This document shows positions 5,629-43,618 of a stretch of DNA of 64,000 nt, in pieces. This stretch comes from Rhodoferax sp. (GTDB taxonomy: Bacteria > Pseudomonadota > Gammaproteobacteria > Burkholderiales > Burkholderiaceae_C). The stretch is taken from assembly GCA_029865845.1 (NCBI GenBank), contig JARXAM010000023.1, positions 50,663 through 114,662 on the forward strand, in the 5' to 3' direction. The notes beneath the pieces are model-generated. The model was given only the letters and a program-made list of their open reading frames with translations, was not told the origin of the DNA and ran no database searches. Within the stretch, counting starts at the first letter, position 1. Every line of letters begins with the position of its first letter. The position numbers and the translations under genes are program-made.

Positions 5629-6840
5629 GCGTGGCAGCGCTGTGAGCGGCAGCAGCTTGGCAAGGTTGATTTGCACCTTGACCTCGCTGTGCGGCACACT
5701 GGCCACGATGCGGTGCTCGGGCAGGTGCGTTTCGCGAATCACTGGGTCCACCGTGGGCAAGCCCGCGCGGTTGATCAACACGGCGACTTTGGGTGTTGTT
5801 GTGTTTTGCCCGCGCTGAATCACGACCGCGATTTCCTGGGTGGCCAGTCGCACAAAGGAGCCCGGTTGGCAAATCCCCACGGCCTTGATCAGCGCAGCGC
5901 CTGCCTCGTCAATGGCCTTGTTTTCATCGAAATAACACCCCTGCATCGCCATGGCCGGGGTGATGGGCTTGCGCGAGACACGTGGTGAGAGCCGCGCGGC
6001 AAACATGTCAGCACGCTGAATGAGGCGCGCAAACCTGCCACCGGCATCGCGGGGAGCGAGCGGCCCCGGCGCAGCCGTGTGGTGGTCCTTGACGGCCTTG
6101 AGCCAGTGGGCATCGTCAATGCCCATGGCCGCAAGCATGTGGGCGGACCGGTCTGCGTGTTGCCGTATATGAATCTGCTGCTCTTTGCTGGGTGGGGCGA
6201 CTTGTACGGCCAATTGGTCTTGCAACTCGGTCATGCCGTAGTTCATGGTGAGGGCGGCCAACCCCAAGGTTTGCACCTCGGCCTCGGGCCACTGCAACAC
6301 GTCTTTCGCTGCGAGCATGCACATGACGCTCACCAGCATCGCGTGGGTGGCGCTGTACATGCGCAACTCGTTGGCAGACAGATAGATCAAGGCGAACAAG
6401 GTGCCGTCTGGGTTGCGCAGGCAGTGCCGGGCCAATTGCCGCTGCAGTTGTTCCAGTCGCTCCATAAAAGTAGTGGCCTGCGAGTCCCGTAGCAAGAAAT
6501 TGGCAATGGTTTGAAGGTCCAGCCAGTCCAGGCGTTCGTCGGGCGCATCCTGCCGGTCCACGAACGCAAACCGGGAAATCTTGGTGTCTGCGATCATTTT
6601 GAGCGGCTTGTCATCGCGCACCATGCCATGCAGTCGGTCCACATAGGCACGGTGGTGGGCCTCGGAGTCCGCCACGTCGATGTAGAGGCCCCCGCCGCGC
6701 TGGGAAATATCTTCCAAATCGCCACGTGAGGGGATGACATAGCCCTTGCATGCCAGCAGCGTGCCTTCTCTGTCGCGGAGCGGGAAAGGCAGCGGGTGGG
6801 CAATGCGAATGGAATCGATACTGATGGTGACGAGGTGCAT
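5611..6840 (-). CDS. Degenerate HD-GYP-type signalling protein
   Basis: 409 residues. An N-terminal ~100-residue region (PLRDREGTLLACKGYVIPS) is followed by a helical HD-like domain. Remnants of HD-GYP are visible: H167 in MYSATHAMLVSV, IRQHADRSAHML (H228), DHH at 252-254 and ADMFAARLSPRVSRKP. The metal-binding HD dyad is replaced by MN (199-200) and no GYP loop is present, so c-di-GMP hydrolysis is unlikely. It may be a binding or regulatory derivative. Its 3' end overlaps the ferritin-like gene tail to tail by 18 bp. Confidence 0.75.
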   Translation of the reverse strand: MHLVTISIDSIRIAHPLPFPLRDREGTLLACKGYVIPSRGDLEDISQRGGGLYIDVADSEAHHRAYVDRLHGMVRDDKPLKMIADTKISRFAFVDRQDAPDERLDWLDLQTIANFLLRDSQATTFMERLEQLQRQLARHCLRNPDGTLFALIYLSANELRMYSATHAMLVSVMCMLAAKDVLQWPEAEVQTLGLAALTMNYGMTELQDQLAVQVAPPSKEQQIHIRQHADRSAHMLAAMGIDDAHWLKAVKDHHTAAPGPLAPRDAGGRFARLIQRADMFAARLSPRVSRKPITPAMAMQGCYFDENKAIDEAGAALIKAVGICQPGSFVRLATQEIAVVIQRGQNTTTPKVAVLINRAGLPTVDPVIRETHLPEHRIVASVPHSEVKVQINLAKLLPLTALPRSDRLL

Positions 6841-33275: not shown

Positions 33276-34355
<1,080 letters not shown>

Positions 34356-34376
34356 GCGCATTTAGAGCCATCTGTG

Positions 34377-34402
34377 AAAGGCCACCGTTCGGTGGCTTTT
34401 TT
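34377..34402 (+). terminator. Intrinsic terminator after fba
   Basis: GCCACCG-TT-CGGTGGC is a perfect 7-bp stem (34381-34396) followed by TTTTTT, with AAAG upstream extending the base of the stem. It begins about 22 bases after the fba stop and marks the left boundary of the accessory island. Confidence 0.9.
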
Positions 34403-34451
34403 GCTGGAAATCACCCTAAACTCCAAGCCTTGCACGAGAGGGATGTGATGA

Positions 34452-37400
34452 ATGGCAACCAAGGTGAGTAAATCGCAAGACGCTACGCCGTCGCCTATTT
34501 TGAATGGGCCTTACAGCGAACCCGTGCAGCATTACGCTACCGCGCCTGACGGATCGTTGGACTATCAAGACCCACGCATAGGCCGCCGCATCTTTGTTCC
34601 GCAGACTCCCCAGGTGCCCATTGGCAAACAAGCACAAGGCAGCTTGTACGACGTCAATGATTTTTCCGCCGAATACCGCACCCATCTGGTCAACTTGCTG
34701 CGAGAGCACGTCGGTCGTTGGCGGCAATCTGGATATGCCGATGTCACTAGTCGCGTCACACGCGACTTATTGCAATACTGGTTCTGCAACGCGGACCGCC
34801 CAGACTGGAAACGCCTGTTCTTTGCACAGCAAGAAGCAGTAGAAACCGCCATCTGGCTCAACGAAGTGGCCCACAAATCTAACGTGGGCAGCCATGTACT
34901 CACCGAGTTGCTACAAGCCAATGCATCGGTAGAAGACCCTGCCAGCATCCTGCCACGTATCGCCTTCAAGATGGCCACTGGCACAGGCAAGACCGTGGTT
35001 ATGGCCTGCTTGCTGCTGTACCACTACCTCAACCGCAGCCAGTACCGCAATGACCCGCGCTACGCAGACTATTTCTTGTTGGTGGCGCCGGGGGTCACCA
35101 TTCGCGACCGCTTAAGCGTTTTGCGGGTGGATACCCAGGTTAGCAAAGATGCCGACGCTGCCGACTACTACCGTGAACGCCAACTTGTGCCGCCAGCGTA
35201 TGCCAGACTGTTGGCGGGGCTGAATGCCAAACTAGCTATCACCAACTACCATGCCTTCGAGCCACGCCTCATCAGCGGCAACAAGCGCAGCCCCATGGAC
35301 GGCAAGCTCGGCCCCAACGGGCAGAAGGTGGAAGCCCGCGAAGACACCACGCAAATGCTCAAGCGCGTGTTGGGCAGCTTCAAACCCGGTCGCCGCTTGG
35401 TAGTCATTAACGACGAAGCCCACCACTGCTACCTGCCCAGAGCTAAAGGCAAAGACACTGAAGAAGAAAATTCCGCCACTGAAAACGAACGCGCAGCCGT
35501 GTGGTTTAGCGGCTTGCGCGCCATGGCCAAGCGCTGGCAAGTGGGGGCGGTGTACGACCTCTCTGCCACGCCCTATTACCTGGCCGGATCTGGATGGCCA
35601 GCCTATTCGTACTTCCCGTGGCTGGTTTCGGACTTTGGTCTGATTGAAGCCATTGAAGCCGGGTTGGTAAAAATCCCCTTTTTGCCCGTGGGTGACACCT
35701 CGCAAGAGCTGGACGAGCCCAAGCTGCGTAACCTCTACGAACACTGCAAAGACGGCTTGCCTAAAAAGGGCCAACGCAAAGAGCGCCAAGAAGATCAGCA
35801 GGCGATGGGTAGTGGGGCTGGTGGCAAGCGGAAGAAAGGCGCAAGCCTTGCATCTCAGCCAGAGCGTCCGCCGGAGTTGCCCGCATTGCTCAAAACTGCC
35901 TTGCAGCAGTTTTACGCACATTACGCCGCTTATGAAAAAGGCTTGCGTGAGCAAGGCGAGCGTGGCAAAGACCTGCTCAGCTCGCCACCCGTGTTCATCG
36001 TGGTGTGCTCCAACACCACAGTGTCTAAAGAGGTGTACAAGCTCATCGCAGGCTATGAAACCGAAGACGATGCCGGCCACGCCTTTGCCGTGGAGGGCGT
36101 GCTGCCACTCTTTTCTAACTACGAACCCGTCACCCGTGCGCGCCGCACCAAACCGCCTACCCTGCTCATCGACTCCGACGCACTGGAAAACTCGGGCCAA
36201 GTCAACGACGAATTCAGGCGCGTCTTTGGCTCCGAGATCCAAACCTTCAAACGCGACTACCGCCTCAGCAACCCCGACAAATCGGTAGAAGCACTCACAG
36301 ACGGTGACCTCCTGCGCGAAGTCGTCAACACTGTGGGCCGCCCTGGCAAATTGGGCGAACACATCCGCTGCGTCGTCAGCGTGGGCATGTTGACCGAGGG
36401 CTGGGACGCCAACACCGTCACCCATATTGTTGGTGTGCGCGCTTTTGGCTCGCAATTGTTGTGCGAACAAGTAGCTGGCCGCGCCCTGCGCCGCAGGCAA
36501 TACTTTTTGGACCCCAAGACTGGCAAGTTCCCCCCCGAATACGCCCACATCATTGGCGTGCCCTTCAAGCTCTTCAAGGGAGGCGAAACCGTAGCCCCCA
36601 CCACGCAAGACATCCAGCACCTGCGTGCCTTGCCAGAGCGCGCTGAACTGGCCATCGACTTCCCCAACCTCGTGGGCTACAAAATCGCCCACAACGCAGA
36701 CGACATCCGCGCCGACTTCGCCGCCACGCCAGACTTTGTGGTCAACATGAACGAGCTGCCCACGCTCACCACCCTGCGCACCGCCTTCTCCGCACACGAA
36801 GAAGAGCTGCGCACCAATGTGGATGCCCTGCGTGACCAAGAGGTGGTGTACTGGATAGCGCAGCAAGTCATGTCCCGCTACTACCGGGGAGACAACGGCC
36901 TGGCTGAGATTGAAAAGTTCACCGACGTGCGCCGCATCGCCCAGCAGTGGTTCGACCACAAAATCGACCTCGTGGGCGAAACAGACCCCCGCTACAAGCG
37001 CATGGTGCGTCTGTATGACGGCACTGCCGTGGCCCGCGCGGTGTACCACGGCATAGAGGCCGCAGCCTTGCAGCGACATTTGGTCGACGGTGCCACTGCG
37101 CAGAGCGAGCACATCATCCCCCTCATCAACCACTACAACCCGCGCTCCAGCTCCGGTTATGTGCATGCAGCCACCGTCAAGCCCGTGTATGCCACCAAAA
37201 AAAGCCACGTTAATTTTGTGGTGGCCGACACCGACAGCTGGGAGCAAATTGCCGCCAAAACCTTTGAGCAAACCGAGGCAGTGCAAAGCTATGTGAAAAA
37301 TGCCTTCCTGGGCTTTGCCATTCCGTACGTGGACAAGCACGGCACAGACCGCCAGTACCAGCCCGACTTCTTATGCCGCATCAAAACCCCCGGCGGAGAG

Positions 37401-37700
37401 TTGTTCAACCTTATCGTTGAAATCACCGGCTTTGCCAAAGACAAAGAACTCAAACGCTACTTCACCACCCAGCGCTGGCTACCCGCAGTGAACGGCCAGC
37501 GCGACAAATTTGGCGGCCTACCCTGGCACTTCATCGAAATCACCGATATCGACCGCATCAAAAACGAGTTGCTGCCCGCCATAGAGCGCATCAGTGCCGA
37601 AGTGGACGACCAAGTGGAGCGCCACTTCTGGATGCATGCGCAATCTTCCACCCTGGAAACCATCTGGGGCGACGATGACGATCAACTCTTTTTTCACTAA
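34452..37700 (+). CDS. Restriction endonuclease, type III Res-like helicase-nuclease (BPTD_3080-type)
   Basis: 1082 residues. Superfamily 2 helicase motifs: Walker A KMATGTGKTVVMACLL (about 172-183), VVINDEAHHCYL (about 318-328), LSATPYYLAGSG and EQVAGRALRRRQYF (about 670). The C-terminal domain resembles a PD-(D/E)XK nuclease, with YQPDF (D972) and NLIVEITGF (E990), but the expected catalytic Lys is Thr992. I recognise the N-terminus (PILNGPYSEPVQHYAT...DPRIGRRIFVPQTPQVP) as that of BPTD_3080-type restriction proteins, by memory only. GAGAGGGA precedes the ATG. First gene of a four-gene operon with a PemK-like gene and a methyltransferase. Confidence 0.88.
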   Translation: MATKVSKSQDATPSPILNGPYSEPVQHYATAPDGSLDYQDPRIGRRIFVPQTPQVPIGKQAQGSLYDVNDFSAEYRTHLVNLLREHVGRWRQSGYADVTSRVTRDLLQYWFCNADRPDWKRLFFAQQEAVETAIWLNEVAHKSNVGSHVLTELLQANASVEDPASILPRIAFKMATGTGKTVVMACLLLYHYLNRSQYRNDPRYADYFLLVAPGVTIRDRLSVLRVDTQVSKDADAADYYRERQLVPPAYARLLAGLNAKLAITNYHAFEPRLISGNKRSPMDGKLGPNGQKVEAREDTTQMLKRVLGSFKPGRRLVVINDEAHHCYLPRAKGKDTEEENSATENERAAVWFSGLRAMAKRWQVGAVYDLSATPYYLAGSGWPAYSYFPWLVSDFGLIEAIEAGLVKIPFLPVGDTSQELDEPKLRNLYEHCKDGLPKKGQRKERQEDQQAMGSGAGGKRKKGASLASQPERPPELPALLKTALQQFYAHYAAYEKGLREQGERGKDLLSSPPVFIVVCSNTTVSKEVYKLIAGYETEDDAGHAFAVEGVLPLFSNYEPVTRARRTKPPTLLIDSDALENSGQVNDEFRRVFGSEIQTFKRDYRLSNPDKSVEALTDGDLLREVVNTVGRPGKLGEHIRCVVSVGMLTEGWDANTVTHIVGVRAFGSQLLCEQVAGRALRRRQYFLDPKTGKFPPEYAHIIGVPFKLFKGGETVAPTTQDIQHLRALPERAELAIDFPNLVGYKIAHNADDIRADFAATPDFVVNMNELPTLTTLRTAFSAHEEELRTNVDALRDQEVVYWIAQQVMSRYYRGDNGLAEIEKFTDVRRIAQQWFDHKIDLVGETDPRYKRMVRLYDGTAVARAVYHGIEAAALQRHLVDGATAQSEHIIPLINHYNPRSSSGYVHAATVKPVYATKKSHVNFVVADTDSWEQIAAKTFEQTEAVQSYVKNAFLGFAIPYVDKHGTDRQYQPDFLCRIKTPGGELFNLIVEITGFAKDKELKRYFTTQRWLPAVNGQRDKFGGLPWHFIEITDIDRIKNELLPAIERISAEVDDQVERHFWMHAQSSTLETIWGDDDDQLFFH

Positions 37701-37708
37701 GACCCGTT

Positions 37709-38065
37709 ATGCCAAGTAGTTACACCTGTGGCGACATATTGCATGTCAACTTCCCCATGGCAGAGGGCGATAGCGCCATGGGGCAACCCCGCTTCAAGGC
37801 ACGCCCCGCACTGGTAGTGACCGATGCCGACAGCAACGGCGACTTTGTGATGGTGGCCGTTACCAGCAAGGCCCATCATGCCTACTGCACCGAGCTACAC
37901 GCCAGCGACTTGGCCAACGGTCAACTCCGGCAAACCTCGTACGTGCGCGCCGACAAGCTCTTCTCGGTCAACACCCAGGCGGTGCAGGCCAAACTGGCAG
38001 TTGCCAAACCTGATTTGGTAGCACGGGTTCGCAAACTTTTGTGTCCAGCTGTCGGCTGCAAATGA
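37709..38065 (+). CDS. PemK/MazF-like toxin-fold protein
   Basis: 118 residues. It begins [14 protein letters not shown] and has the MazF/PemK core [29 protein letters not shown], keeping the Arg after the first strands and the VTSK segment that hold the RNase active site in characterised members. [16 protein letters not shown] near the end also fits the family. It lies between the restriction nuclease (8 bp) and the methyltransferase (13 bp). No antitoxin-sized gene is adjacent. It may be a true RNase kept in check by the restriction system, or a repurposed fold. Confidence 0.85.
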
Positions 38066-38078
38066 AGGCGTAATACCC

Positions 38079-40754
38079 ATGGCCACCAAAAAACCATCCA
38101 CCTCTGCCACATCTCGCGCCAAAACACCCCGCGCAACCGCTGGCGAAACAGCGGTGGGCAGCAACAAACCTGTGGATGCCATCCGCCACAAGTTTGACCC
38201 CGACGACACCACCGCCCCTAAGCGCGTACACATCCCCAGCCGCGAAGAAGCAGGCCAAGAGGCCGATGCAGTACAGGGCTTGCCAACTATCAAAAATGTA
38301 GCGCTTAACCCAGTGACCACAAGGGGCCAAGACCCCGAGCTTTACTGGATGCACAAGTACGGCAGCGCCGACCAAGAGCGCGCGCTGCAAGTGGACATCC
38401 GCAGCCTCTACCGCCACGAACACATCGCGCCCGAGAAAGTCATGGCGCGGCTCTACCAGTTCAAAGAGCGTGATACGGCCCAAGACCAGTTGTTTGTGAA
38501 CGAACTCTTTGGCAACCCCCTGGCCATGGACGAGCTGGACAAACCCGGCAGCTACTACAAACACCCCGACAAATGGCAAAACCGCCTCATCCAGGGCGAC
38601 AGCCTGCTCACCATGACCAGCCTCTTGGAGCGCGAAGGCATGGCCGGCCAGGTGCAATGCATTTACATGGACCCGCCCTACGGCATCAAATACGGCAGCA
38701 ACTGGCAAATGCGGCTGAACGACCGCAACGTGAAAGACGGCGCGGACGAGAACCTGAGCGGCGAGCCCGAAGTCATCAAAGCCTTTCGCGACACCTGGGA
38801 GCTGGGCATTCACAGCTACCTGAGCTACCTGCGCGACAGATTGCTGGTGGCCAAAGACTTGCTATCCAACTCCGGCAGTTGCTTTGTGCAGATCAGCGAT
38901 GAGAACGTCCATCTGGTGCGTTGTTTGATGGATGAGGTGTTTGGTAGTGAGAATTTTGTAGCGCTCATCACGTTCAAAAAAACCGGTGGACAAACTTCAA
39001 ACTTACTTTCGCCAGTAAGTGACTATTTGGTTTGGTATGGGAAAGACGTTGAGCAGATCAAGTATCGCCAGCTATTTAAGGAAATCAAAGCCGGTGAAGG
39101 TCATAGCACAGGCGAGAGGTACGACCAAGCATTGCTCGTAGACGGCACAGTGGTAACGGCTGGATCACTAGACGATGTGCCGAAAGGGACACGTTTTTTT
39201 CGGCATGTCACGTTGTCCTCCAATCGACCCGCAAAAGAGCACGAAAAAATTGAGTTTGAATTTAAAGGTCGAAAGTTTCTCCCGCCTGCAAACAGAACGT
39301 GGACAACGACCGTTGAAGGTATGGGCAATTTGGTTAAGGCGGATCGAGTTCATGCTGGGGCAAAGAGTCTCAATTACGTCAAGTACCTCGATGATTTTCC
39401 GGCGTATCCAATTGGGAATTTATGGGAAGACGTTAGTGGAAGTGGGGAACGCCACTATGTTGTTCAGACGAGCCAACGGGTAATTGAGCGCTGTATCCTC
39501 ATGACCACCGACCCCGGCGACCTGGTGCTGGACCCCACCTGTGGCAGTGGCACCACCGCCCATGTGGCCGAGCAGTGGGGCCGGCGCTGGATTACCAGCG
39601 ACACCAGCCGCATTGCGCTCAACATTGCCAAGACCCGGCTCATGACCGCCACCTACCCTTGGTACAAGTTGGCCGACGTGGTGGGGCAAGATGTTCGCCA
39701 TGGCTTTGTCTATAAAACCGTGCCGCACATCACGCTCAAAAGCCTGGCCAACAACGAGCCGCCCGAGACCGAGACCCTGTTTGACCAACCCGAGCAAGAC
39801 AAAAAGAAGCTGCGCGTGGCTGGTCCCTTTACGGTGGAGACGCTGCAAAGCTTTGAGCCCCTGGCCCCCAGCCAGTTGGCTGCGGCCAATGCCGACATGG
39901 ACAATGTGCAGCGCTTTACCGAGCGCATTTATGAGCACCTGAAAACCGCAGGCATCAAGAACGGTGCCAAGAACGAAACGGCGGTGTTCAACCGCGTGGA
40001 CACCATCAACGATGCCGAGGGCGCCCTGCATGCCGAGGGCTGGTACGCCACGGCAGAGGGCGAACGCAAGGCCTACCTGTTCATTGGCCCGCAGTTTGGC
40101 AGCGTGAGCCGTGCGGCGGTGAATGCCGCCATCAAGGCCTGCAGCCGCCGGGCTGATGCGGATTGGCTCGTCATCTTGGGCTTTGCGTTTGAAAGCGATA
40201 TTGACAACCGCAACGTCACGCGCAAGGTGGGCAGCTTTGAAGTGACCAAGGCGCGCATGCATGACGACCTGATGCAAGACGGCTTGATCAAGAAAGACAA
40301 AAAAGCCGCCAGCTTTGTGACCATTGGCGAGCCCGATATTGGCCTAGTGCGTGCAGGAGGGGCTGGGCAGGGCGATACGGTGCAGGTGGAGATACGCGGC
40401 TTGGATATTTACGACCCGGTGAAAGACGAGGTGAAGGGCCGCAGCGTGGCCGACATTGCCTACTGGATGCTGGACGACGACTACAACGGCTCAGACTTTG
40501 TGCCCACGCAGGTGTTTTTCTGCGGCGGTGACAAGGATGAGTTTGACAAGTTCAAACGCGGCTTGCATTCCCTGGCCGTAGCCAGCACCAAGAAGGCGGC
40601 GGAGCGCACGCTCAAGATTGAGCTGGACGATGAAGCCTTTGAGCGTGTGTATGGCCACCTGTCGCACCCTGTGCCTGCCGCCAAAGGGCGCAAGCTGGCG
40701 GTGCGGGTGGTGAGTCAGTTTGGCGAAGAGAGCACCAAAGTGCTCACGCTGTAG
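38079..40754 (+). CDS. Site-specific DNA methyltransferase, beta-class (type III Mod-like)
   Basis: 891 residues. The catalytic motif [13 protein letters not shown] (DPPY at 198-201) precedes the SAM-binding motif [39 protein letters not shown] (about 483-520), the beta-class order used by type III Mod subunits; N6-adenine methylation is likely but N4-cytosine cannot be excluded. Between them, about residues 288-470, the DNA is AT-richer and of different codon use, probably the target-recognition region. A long C-terminal extension (to 891) exceeds usual Mod size. Partner of the upstream restriction protein; 13 bp after the PemK-like gene. Confidence 0.92.
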
Positions 40755-40768
40755 GAGTGGTGGGCTGC

Positions 40769-42634
40769 ATGAACAGCGTAGTGCCTGAAATCACCGCCGC
40801 TTGGGCAGCTATCGACTGGGCCAGCGCCCTGTCAGACACCGCACTGTGTGACTTGGCAGGCGCGGGCGTGTTCCAGCGCGGACAGACTTACGCGGCCAGC
40901 GGCGCGGTGCAAGAGGCGGCGCTGGAGCCCCTGCAGGATGGCGGCGTTGAGTTTCGTGCCTGCGTCATGGGAACCCAGCCCTATACCTGCGAGGTGCAGC
41001 TCACGATAGCTGCCGAGGTACAGGGCGAATGCGATTGCCCGCATGCGCAAGACGGAAACTTTTGCAAGCACCAAGTGGCCTTGGCTTTGTTGTTGCGTGG
41101 TTTGCTGGGCGGCGCAGTGATTGAGCAAACCCCCGAAACACAAAAAAAGGTGGCCGCTGCCGCCAAACGTGCACAAACACAGGCCAAAAACCGGGATGCG
41201 CTGCACGCCTTTGTGCGCCGCCAAAGCGCCGCTGTGCTGGCCGAACGCCTGTTGCAATGGGCCGAACGTGACCGCAATTTACTCGCCGATCTGAAAGCTT
41301 GGGCCGCCCAAGCGCAAGCGGCGGATGACCCCAAAGCGTTGCGAACGGTGCTGGGCGAGCTGCTCAAGCACAGCGGTTTTTTGGACTGGCATGGCAGCGG
41401 GGTGTATGCGCGCCGTGCTGAAAAAGTTTTGCCCTTGCTGGAGCAGGCACTGGAGAAAGACCCCATCCAGGCGCGTAGCTTGTGCGACTATGCCTTGCGC
41501 CGCTTGTACAAGGTGGGGGAGCAAGCGGACGACTCCAACGGTGAGATCGGTGAGCTGATGGGCGGCGTGATGGGACTGCTGCTGCGCAGCTTGCAACTGG
41601 CCCCGCCCCCCGCACAGTGGGTGGATGACTGGTTTGCCTTGATGGAGGCCGACCCCTGGGGCCTGTGGCACGAGGACGCGGTGCTCAAGGTGGCAGGCTC
41701 TGCGGTGCAGCAACGCTTCAGCCAGCGCGTGCAAAAAGACTGGCTGGCGTGGGTAGGGGCGCATTCCCAAGATGCGACAACGCGTGCGGGCAAGAAGCAT
41801 GTGGCGGTGACAATGGGAGGGCGCTGGGACTATGAGCGCTCCAAGCTTCGCAAACGCTACTTGGAAGACCTGAAGCGCCAGGGCGATGTAATGGCGGTGA
41901 TAGAGGCCATGCGTACCTCCATGCATGAGGCGTATGAGCATGGCGAGCTGGTGGCCTATTGCGAATTGGTGGGCAAGATGCGCGAGGCATTGCAGTACGC
42001 ACAGGCTGCGTACAAACTGTTTCCGAATGACTGGCGCAGCGAGGCCGATGTGTTGCGCTGCTACGAGCGCGATGGCTGGGATGCTGAGGCGCTTTTCATC
42101 CGGCGCAAGCAGTTGGAAAAGAACCCCTCGTCGGAACATTTTCACGCTGTGCTGAAAGCCGCCCAAGCAGCGGGGCAGGATGTGCACACCTACCGCAATG
42201 CACTGTTTGCCTGGGCCGCAGAGCAAGAGTTGCACACCGAGCCCCGCGCACTGGTGGGCTACCAGCGGCGCATCGTGGCGCAAGCGGCGGGCCGTAATGT
42301 GAGTGTGCGGGTGGCATGGCTGCTGTCAGAAAAAGCGTGGGAGCAAGCGCTGCAGTTGGTGCAGCCCCCGCATGTGTGCGCGCCAGATTTGTTGCAAACC
42401 TTGGCCAAAAAGTTACCCAAAGCGCAGGCACCGCAAGCGGTGGCCCTGCTACAGCGGGTGTTTGCGGTGGCCATGCCTGGGGCCAGCACGCCCTACACCG
42501 ATGTGTTGGCACTGGTGGCCGATATGGCAGCCCGCATGGAGCGCGAGCCACGCAGCCACTGGCTTGCATGGCTGCGGGCCGAATACAAAGCGAAGCGCAA
42601 CTTCATCAAGGGGCTGGACGCTCTGCGTGCGTGA
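40769..42634 (+). CDS. SWIM zinc-finger protein
   Basis: 621 residues from the ATG at 40769, which has GGAG about 11 bases upstream; the track start is a GTG four codons earlier. The SWIM motif CxCx8CxH is clear: C88, C90, C99 and H101 in ECDCPHAQDGNFCKH. SWIM domains bind DNA or protein and often accompany SWI2/SNF2-type helicases. The rest is helical, repeat-like and probably forms an alpha-solenoid (for example YCELVGKMREALQYAQAAYKLFPNDWRSE). It lies 14 bp after the methyltransferase and is the last gene of the restriction operon. Function unknown. Confidence 0.85.
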   Translation: MNSVVPEITAAWAAIDWASALSDTALCDLAGAGVFQRGQTYAASGAVQEAALEPLQDGGVEFRACVMGTQPYTCEVQLTIAAEVQGECDCPHAQDGNFCKHQVALALLLRGLLGGAVIEQTPETQKKVAAAAKRAQTQAKNRDALHAFVRRQSAAVLAERLLQWAERDRNLLADLKAWAAQAQAADDPKALRTVLGELLKHSGFLDWHGSGVYARRAEKVLPLLEQALEKDPIQARSLCDYALRRLYKVGEQADDSNGEIGELMGGVMGLLLRSLQLAPPPAQWVDDWFALMEADPWGLWHEDAVLKVAGSAVQQRFSQRVQKDWLAWVGAHSQDATTRAGKKHVAVTMGGRWDYERSKLRKRYLEDLKRQGDVMAVIEAMRTSMHEAYEHGELVAYCELVGKMREALQYAQAAYKLFPNDWRSEADVLRCYERDGWDAEALFIRRKQLEKNPSSEHFHAVLKAAQAAGQDVHTYRNALFAWAAEQELHTEPRALVGYQRRIVAQAAGRNVSVRVAWLLSEKAWEQALQLVQPPHVCAPDLLQTLAKKLPKAQAPQAVALLQRVFAVAMPGASTPYTDVLALVADMAARMEREPRSHWLAWLRAEYKAKRNFIKGLDALRA

Positions 42635-42712
42635 ACAGAATGCATGCGGCCCGCAGGAGGGAATGTGGGGATAATTCGCCCTCTGCTTTTCGGTTTCATC
42701 ACTCCACACCCC

Positions 42713-43618
42713 ATGACTTCAGCTTTGCACACCTCCGCTTTGTCCCTTCCCTTGCTTGCCCGTGGCAAGGTGCGTGATAACTATGCGGTGGGTGAAGACC
42801 GCATCCTGATGGTGGCCAGCGACCGGCTGTCTGCCTTTGACGTGATCATGGGCGAGCCCATTCCGGGCAAAGGCGCGTTGCTGACCCAAATGGCCCTGTT
42901 CTGGTTTGACAAGCTGGGCAAAAACGGCGCAGACGTGTGCCCCAATCACCTCACCGGCGAAGCCCCGGAGAGCGTGGTTACACCCGCAGAGATTCCCCAG
43001 GTCACCGGGCGCTCGATGCTGGTCAAGCGCCTCAAGCCACTGCCCGTAGAGGCGGTAGTGCGCGGCTATTTGGCCGGCAGCGGTTGGAAGGAATACCAGC
43101 ACAACGGCGCGGTCTGCGGGGTGCCCTTGCCTGCGGGCCTGCAGAACGCCAGTAAATTACTTGCGCCCATCTATACGCCAGCGGCTAAGGCGGCCGTGGG
43201 TGATCACGACGAGAACATCACGTTCGAGAAAACGGTGGAGATGATTGGCCTGGACTTGGCCACCCGCGTGCGCGACCTCAGTATCCAGATCTATCAGGTC
43301 GCTGCGGAGTTCGCCCTGACCAAAGGGATCATCATTGCCGACACCAAGTTCGAGTTCGGCTTGGACCGGGACGGCACGCTGACCCTGATGGACGAGGTGC
43401 TCACCCCAGACTCCAGCCGCTACTGGCCAGTGGAAAGCTACCAGGTGGGCACCAACCCCCCCAGCTACGACAAGCAGTTTGTGCGCGATTGGCTGGAGCA
43501 AGCGTTGGTGGACGGAAAGCCCTGGGACAAGACGCCGCCCGCGCCCCGTGTACCCCGCGACGTGATCGAGAAAACGGCGGCCAAGTACCGCGAAGCGCTC
43601 ACCCGGCTGACGACCTGA
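42713..43618 (+). CDS. purC: Phosphoribosylaminoimidazole-succinocarboxamide synthase
   Basis: 301 residues from the ATG at 42713; the track start is 23 codons early. Motifs: [73 protein letters not shown] and [14 protein letters not shown]. Of the yeast Ade1-like, longer SAICAR synthase class. Converts CAIR plus aspartate to SAICAR in purine synthesis. GATAAT at 42670-42675 is a possible -10, and no Shine-Dalgarno is evident. It resumes the housekeeping order interrupted by the restriction island. Confidence 0.97.

Follow-up and report, generated by a model that had tools for sequence, protein, structure and literature searches.

How does a toxin gene embedded in a restriction operon stay silent when no antitoxin gene accompanies it? 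The question is raised by a gene of the PemK/MazF family that lies between the two genes of a putative restriction-modification (RM) system in a Rhodoferax MAG (2.74 Mb, 75.8% complete). Below, the window is the whole stretch of 64,000 nucleotides that was analysed, and L numbers denote the other loci with which it was compared. The features under discussion are these:

34452 to 37700, + strand: Res, a BPTD_3080-family restriction endonuclease of 1082 aa, with an SF2 helicase and a C-terminal nuclease region (NF046055; ResIII, PF04851)
37638 to 37697, + strand: the antitoxin-like, putatively toxin-binding tail of Res, residues 1063-1082, AQSSTLETIWGDDDDQLFFH (stand-alone antitoxin-tail profile)
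37709 to 38065, + strand: PemK/MazF-family toxin of 118 aa, without a separate antitoxin gene (PF02452; MazF fold)
38079 to 40754, + strand: Mod, a type III-like N6/N4 DNA methyltransferase of 891 aa (PF01555; PADLOC PDLC03632)
40757 to 42634, + strand: SWIM zinc-finger protein of 625 aa, a possible accessory member (PF04434; PADLOC PDC-S62)

The stop codon of Res occupies 37698-37700, pemK starts 8 bp downstream, and another 13 bp separate its end from the ATG of Mod at 38079, so that the ORF coordinates bear out the tight spacing to both neighbours given in the original prediction. About 97 bp lie between an aldolase-like gene and the start of Res downstream of it. Res scores 969 bits against NCBIfam NF046055 (cut-off 800) and its helicase motifs, MATGTGKT and NDEAHH, are invariant across 13 relatives, while Mod matches the PADLOC model PDLC03632 (MTase_III) with an E-value of 2.7e-166. 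Judged by its domains, i.e. a BPTD_3080 Res above the family cut-off together with an N6/N4 methylase Mod, the locus is a type III-like RM system of putative activity. The SWIM zinc-finger gene, which begins 2 bp past mod and matches the PADLOC candidate PDC-S62 (E = 7.9e-33), has a homologue in L033 and none in the other loci searched for it; it is possibly part of the defence operon. Within the region 33276-43618, the RM island sits between genes that, named by eye, are fructose-bisphosphate aldolase-like and purC-like.

The 118-aa product of pemK matches Pfam PF02452 (PemK_toxin) with 40 bits (E = 5e-10; cut-off 23.1), and it is the only match to that family in the MAG. Its AlphaFold2 model, built from 13 relatives, has a mean pLDDT of 86, and the best fold matches in the PDB, as found by Foldseek, are the MazF proteins of S. 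aureus, M. tuberculosis and B. subtilis (TM ~0.74, E = 6e-7). Two residues, R32 and T52, are invariant in the 13 sequences aligned, and we take them to be the catalytic Arg/Thr pair of MazF, as the profile match to solved MazFs also indicates. Comparing the window with L279 gives a pN of 0.17 against a pS of 0.74, which indicates that pemK is under purifying selection. By family, fold and selection, all of them read from sequence, pemK is a real gene of the PemK/MazF toxin family and a predicted RNase. The original prediction had described the RNase fold core as intact, and so it is, with 'RPALVV' and 'VAVTSK' holding the invariant R32 and T52 within a modelled MazF fold; it had also named loss of active-site residues in homologues, along with a lack of toxicity, as what would speak against it, and both residues are kept in the 13 relatives. 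In the PemK of the window, L279 and L280, six extra residues are inserted into the first loop (residues 19-30 in the window); they are missing from L033, L042 and the aligned stand-alone relatives. A scan of genome contigs with the PemK peptide retrieved no relative, and relatives were therefore gathered with Res as the query; PemK had no match among plasmid sequences either.

No antitoxin-size gene lies upstream of pemK, as had been predicted, since the Res ORF covers the preceding 3.2 kb, and the ORF list together with a six-frame scan of the window revealed no separate antitoxin gene adjoining pemK on either side. When the whole window was scanned in six frames with a full-length antitoxin profile, a single match fell below an E-value of 1, and it corresponds to residues 1039-1078 of Res (E = 0.008). 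There is no antitoxin N-terminal domain at the locus, nor does any match to the DUF2281 antitoxin family reach the cut-off in the MAG, at its 75.8% completeness. The description of the toxin as "without an antitoxin" is right as far as a separate gene is concerned but misleading with regard to function, because Res carries an antitoxin-like tail.

This tail is encoded immediately upstream of pemK, as the C-terminus of Res, and it has counterparts elsewhere. A search for the same placement in homologous loci, which the original prediction had proposed as a check, places PemK between Res and Mod in L033, L042, L279 and L280 as well, and in all five PemK loci Res has an extra C-terminal tail: ERHFWMHAQSSTLETIWGDDDDQLFFH in the window, where the shared lead-in 'ERHFWM' starts at residue 1056, ERHFWMNAQSSSLTSVWDDDDDQLFALPS in L279, ERHFWMAASSVSLRQIWDNADDEIWNDQ in L033, ERQFFAKAQSVSMANVWDNPGDEVWNGA in L042 and DEFWMNIQAQTVDSTWCEADEHLFEAPKQA in L280. 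The nearest stand-alone PemKs in the order, L204-L209, have small DUF2281-like antitoxins upstream, which score ~23 bits for DUF2281, just under the cut-off of 26.5. The C-termini of such antitoxins (for example AQSASLRHVWDNPEDEAWNDLPLR and AQAGSMKEIWDNEADEAWNEA) share the pattern AQ..(S/V)(M/L)..(V/I)WDN..(D/E)E(V/A)W, and the Res proteins of the PemK loci have the same motif at their C-terminus, adjoining or overlapping the start of the toxin gene; the L042 tail, for instance, with AQSVSMANVWDNPGDEVWNGA, closely resembles the ends of stand-alone PemK antitoxins, of which AQSASLRHVWDNPEDEAWNDL is one.

A profile was built from six stand-alone antitoxin tails, with no Res sequence included, and compared with 3,442 C-termini, namely 173 of Res proteins and 3,269 of decoy ORFs. 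The top four were the Res tails of L042 (E = 1.8e-12), L033 (2e-9), L279 (3e-5) and the window (0.015), the last of these scoring 12.2 bits versus 9.4 for the best decoy; the L280 tail was below detection with this profile. The window tail is degenerate (WDNxxDEVW has become WGDDDDQLF) and, among the four tails that were detected, has diverged furthest. In the model of the window Res the tail is flexible past a long helix, with pLDDT below 50 from residue 1066, the model as a whole having a mean pLDDT of 56 and being poor outside the C-terminal region. Isolated Res tails matched no family in an NCBIfam search, and their sole Pfam match, HTH_15 for the L034 tail, was judged irrelevant. Plasmid tblastn searches with the window and L042 tails returned weak chance matches, and those inspected were not antitoxins.

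A second toxin family provides a second case. In L034-L036, whose Res proteins share a clade with those of the PemK loci, a lone VapC (PF01850) lies between Res and Mod, and in L034 the Mod frame extends back across vapC. Their Res proteins end in VapB-like tails, such as APDTLGEALRLLASLPDDFYLDGREDPP in L036, which are unlike the tails of the PemK loci. With a profile made from eight stand-alone VapB tails, the Res proteins of L035 and L036 rank first among the 3,442 C-termini (E = 2.2e-7 and 2.8e-7), and that of L034 is a borderline case, reaching E = 0.015 when the profile was extended, with one decoy scoring better. Neither the 18 best matches of the PemK-type profile nor those of the VapB-type profile include a Res of the other group. 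When the L036 tail was searched against 7.3 Gb of plasmid sequence, its best match (E = 0.2) was the C-terminus of a VapB adjoining a VapC, on pALVIN02. The Res tails of the VapC loci keep 'PDDFY..GREDPP', with an Arg at the position of VapB Arg64; in the Shigella VapBC complex a segment of VapB wraps VapC and puts this Arg into the active site (PMC3384007). Judged by these profiles and motifs, the Res C-terminus in lone-toxin loci is a homologue of the toxin-binding tail of that toxin's usual antitoxin family, and this homology lends good support to the earlier suggestion that one of the restriction proteins might control PemK.

Between loci, the tail goes with the toxin and not with the Res core. 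In the tree of the Res core the window branches as sister to L033 (80% identity, support 99/97), and L279 comes next (78%). PemK of the window, in contrast, is 38% identical to that of L033 and 74% to that of L279, and the Res tail agrees with L033 at 7 of 18 positions and with L279 at 13 of 18. At the DNA level, the window and L033 are 87% identical in Res, 45-59% across the slot between Res and Mod, and 89-94% in Mod, although the start of Mod is variable in other locus comparisons too. Together with the identities of PemK and tail, this drop is the pattern expected of an exchanged toxin-plus-tail cassette. The PemK and VapC loci are also interleaved in the Res tree, with two changes needed per label. 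Toxin and matching tail thus appear to have been exchanged between loci as one cassette, both between PemK subtypes and between PemK and VapC with its VapB-like tail. After the last core strand there are at least 52 residues in eight of eight lone-toxin Res proteins and at least 45 in three of 111 other Res proteins, but since all eight lone-toxin loci belong to one Res clade, the extra length of the C-terminus could by itself be an ancestral trait.

The position between Res and Mod is used more widely. A Res scan of GTDB genomes provided 80 loci, to which further genome and virus searches added more. In the 121 loci in which Res precedes Mod, the gap exceeds 200 bp in 70 and is no more than 60 bp in 51, and the variety of genes inserted in those 70 identifies the Res-Mod junction as a cargo slot. 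By Pfam, its contents include PemK, PIN/VapC, Fic, KilA-N, GmrSD, zeta-like, Abi_2, ORF6N, Bro-N and Schlafen-type genes, and further kinds were recognised by eye; MNT/HEPN-like genes are also among the cargo. Examples of cargo-bearing NF046055 loci are L038, L043, L054, L070, L055 and L177. In L054 a zeta-toxin-like gene (L054:9114-9641) stands alone in the slot, and the Res there has no extended tail. On the Methanohalobium evestigatum plasmid pMETEV01 (L297), an archaeal PemK is paired with an AbrB-type antitoxin that has a 'WDTEEEDETW' tail, and the pair is flanked by genes for a DUF262 protein and a restriction endonuclease.

Our main reading, which we consider quite probable, is that the locus is a type III-like RM operon with a built-in toxin-antitoxin (TA) switch, in which Res itself would be the antitoxin of PemK and the toxin would be released in a manner similar to PrrC from EcoprrI. 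In a further-reaching form, to which we assign a probability of roughly 0.55, Res carries a captured and swappable antitoxin tail, release of the toxin signals the condition of Res itself, as a guard of restriction, and toxin and tail are exchanged as a cassette at the Res-Mod junction. In the main reading, the final 20-30 residues of Res would be the toxin-binding tail of a DUF2281-type antitoxin, acquired without the antitoxin's N-terminal part, and with that part absent the operon is not expected to be autoregulated like a TA pair. Res, being made first, would bind the PemK translated just after it and block its RNase, the flexible tail covering the active site much as MazE wraps MazF across its active site (PMC4803016). 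Were Res to be lost, proteolysed or tied up by an anti-restriction protein of a phage, PemK would become free to cleave RNA and so arrest the cell, as a second line behind restriction. While the tail homology, its match to the toxin and the swap can be read from the alignments, direct binding and neutralisation of PemK by the tail are what we infer from that homology, and a release of PemK upon phage anti-restriction is drawn from analogy. An abortive-infection arm triggered by failed restriction, as the original prediction had it, would be the most plausible use of such an arrangement, judging from PrrC/EcoprrI.

The same molecular evidence, i.e. the tail homology, is equally expected if the arrangement serves addiction only, where the tail lets Res neutralise PemK and cells that lose the locus are exposed to the toxin, which outlasts Res, so that the RM locus is retained. 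PMC3874152 portrays both RM and TA modules as selfish and addictive, and the distribution of the locus is patchy, with no match in three sampled genomes of the same genus. On the other hand, the slot often holds genes of abortive-infection or defence type (Abi_2, GmrSD, Fic, Schlafen), not addiction modules alone, which is no more than suggestive. We regard pure addiction as possible rather than probable.

It is unlikely, in our view, that PemK is an ordinary toxin whose antitoxin acts in trans, or a toxin-like RNase that has come to do without one, and that the resemblance of the tail is incidental. The window's own tail match is weak, other antitoxins of the MazE family are present in the MAG, and since the MAG is incomplete (just 75.8%), an antitoxin encoded elsewhere is still conceivable. 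However, the three MazE-type antitoxin genes of the MAG were rejected as candidates, each being located before its own VapC or Doc-like toxin, the tail matches of L042 and L033 are strong (E = 1.8e-12 and 2e-9), and the pattern recurs with VapC and VapB, the tail tracking the toxin rather than the Res core.

One may also consider that the tail does not neutralise PemK and instead brings it, as an active RNase in the complex, to invading DNA or its transcripts, on which Res and PemK would act together. The tail is modelled as flexible past the nuclease region and a long helix, and for HEPN proteins it has been proposed that their RNase activity works together with restriction (PMC3710099), but the segments to which the tail is homologous are inhibitory ones, that of VapB blocking the VapC active site and MazE covering that of MazF; we hold recruitment to be improbable. 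Finally, that PemK is the decaying relic of what was once a pemIK pair, as the absent N-terminal part of the antitoxin and the diverged window tail might suggest, is most improbable given the pN of 0.17 versus pS of 0.74 between the window and L279, the intact frames in five loci and the invariant catalytic residues.

The main reading, Res with a captured antitoxin tail, offers a testable answer to how a toxin in a restriction operon stays silent without its own antitoxin, and a possible molecular mechanism through which the defeat of restriction could be sensed by the cell. That RM enzymes restrain RNases has been argued from PrrC/EcoprrI and from gene neighbourhoods; here a short, swappable, putative inhibitory element is seen within a restriction enzyme, with two toxin families. 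In the open-licence literature, papers on BPTD_3080, on fusions of antitoxin domains to restriction endonucleases and on toxins placed between res and mod yielded no earlier description of the arrangement. Our observations also suggest that antitoxin tails concealed on neighbouring proteins may exist for other "orphan" toxins as well.

Among known systems, PrrC of E. coli is a translation-disabling anticodon nuclease of a type Ic RM locus that is silenced by EcoprrI and activated when the Stp protein of phage T4 inhibits restriction (PMC2610378, PMC12707154). As there, an RNase gene is embedded in an RM locus here, whether it encodes PemK (window, L033, L042, L279, L280) or VapC (L034-L036); unlike there, where a HEPN/ABC-ATPase protein is under the control of a type I complex, the toxin is a PemK or VapC, the RM system is type III-like, and the proposed silencer is a captured antitoxin tail on Res. 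RM-linked HEPN toxins were likewise proposed to be inhibited by RM subunits until restriction is overcome (Anantharaman et al. 2013, PMC3710099). Our reading shares the notion of RM subunits that hold an RNase in check, but whereas that proposal was based on gene neighbourhoods and HEPN fusions, a specific antitoxin-homologous element on Res is found here. With PemIK/MazEF and VapBC the loci have in common the toxin families, their fold and active-site residues, the antitoxin-first order and a homologous toxin-binding tail; they differ in that the tail sits on a restriction enzyme (1082 aa in the window), with neither a separate antitoxin nor the antitoxin N-terminal part. A further parallel is pALVIN02 of Allochromatium vinosum, where a complete vapBC (6038-6675, i.e. 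L199:1375-2012) is placed in a type I RM operon, with hsdS on one side and hsdR on the other. There too a TA toxin resides within an RM operon, and the L036 Res tail finds its closest plasmid match in the tail of this VapB; unlike the PemK and VapC loci, the plasmid locus has a full, separate VapB, and it may resemble the state before the tail was captured.
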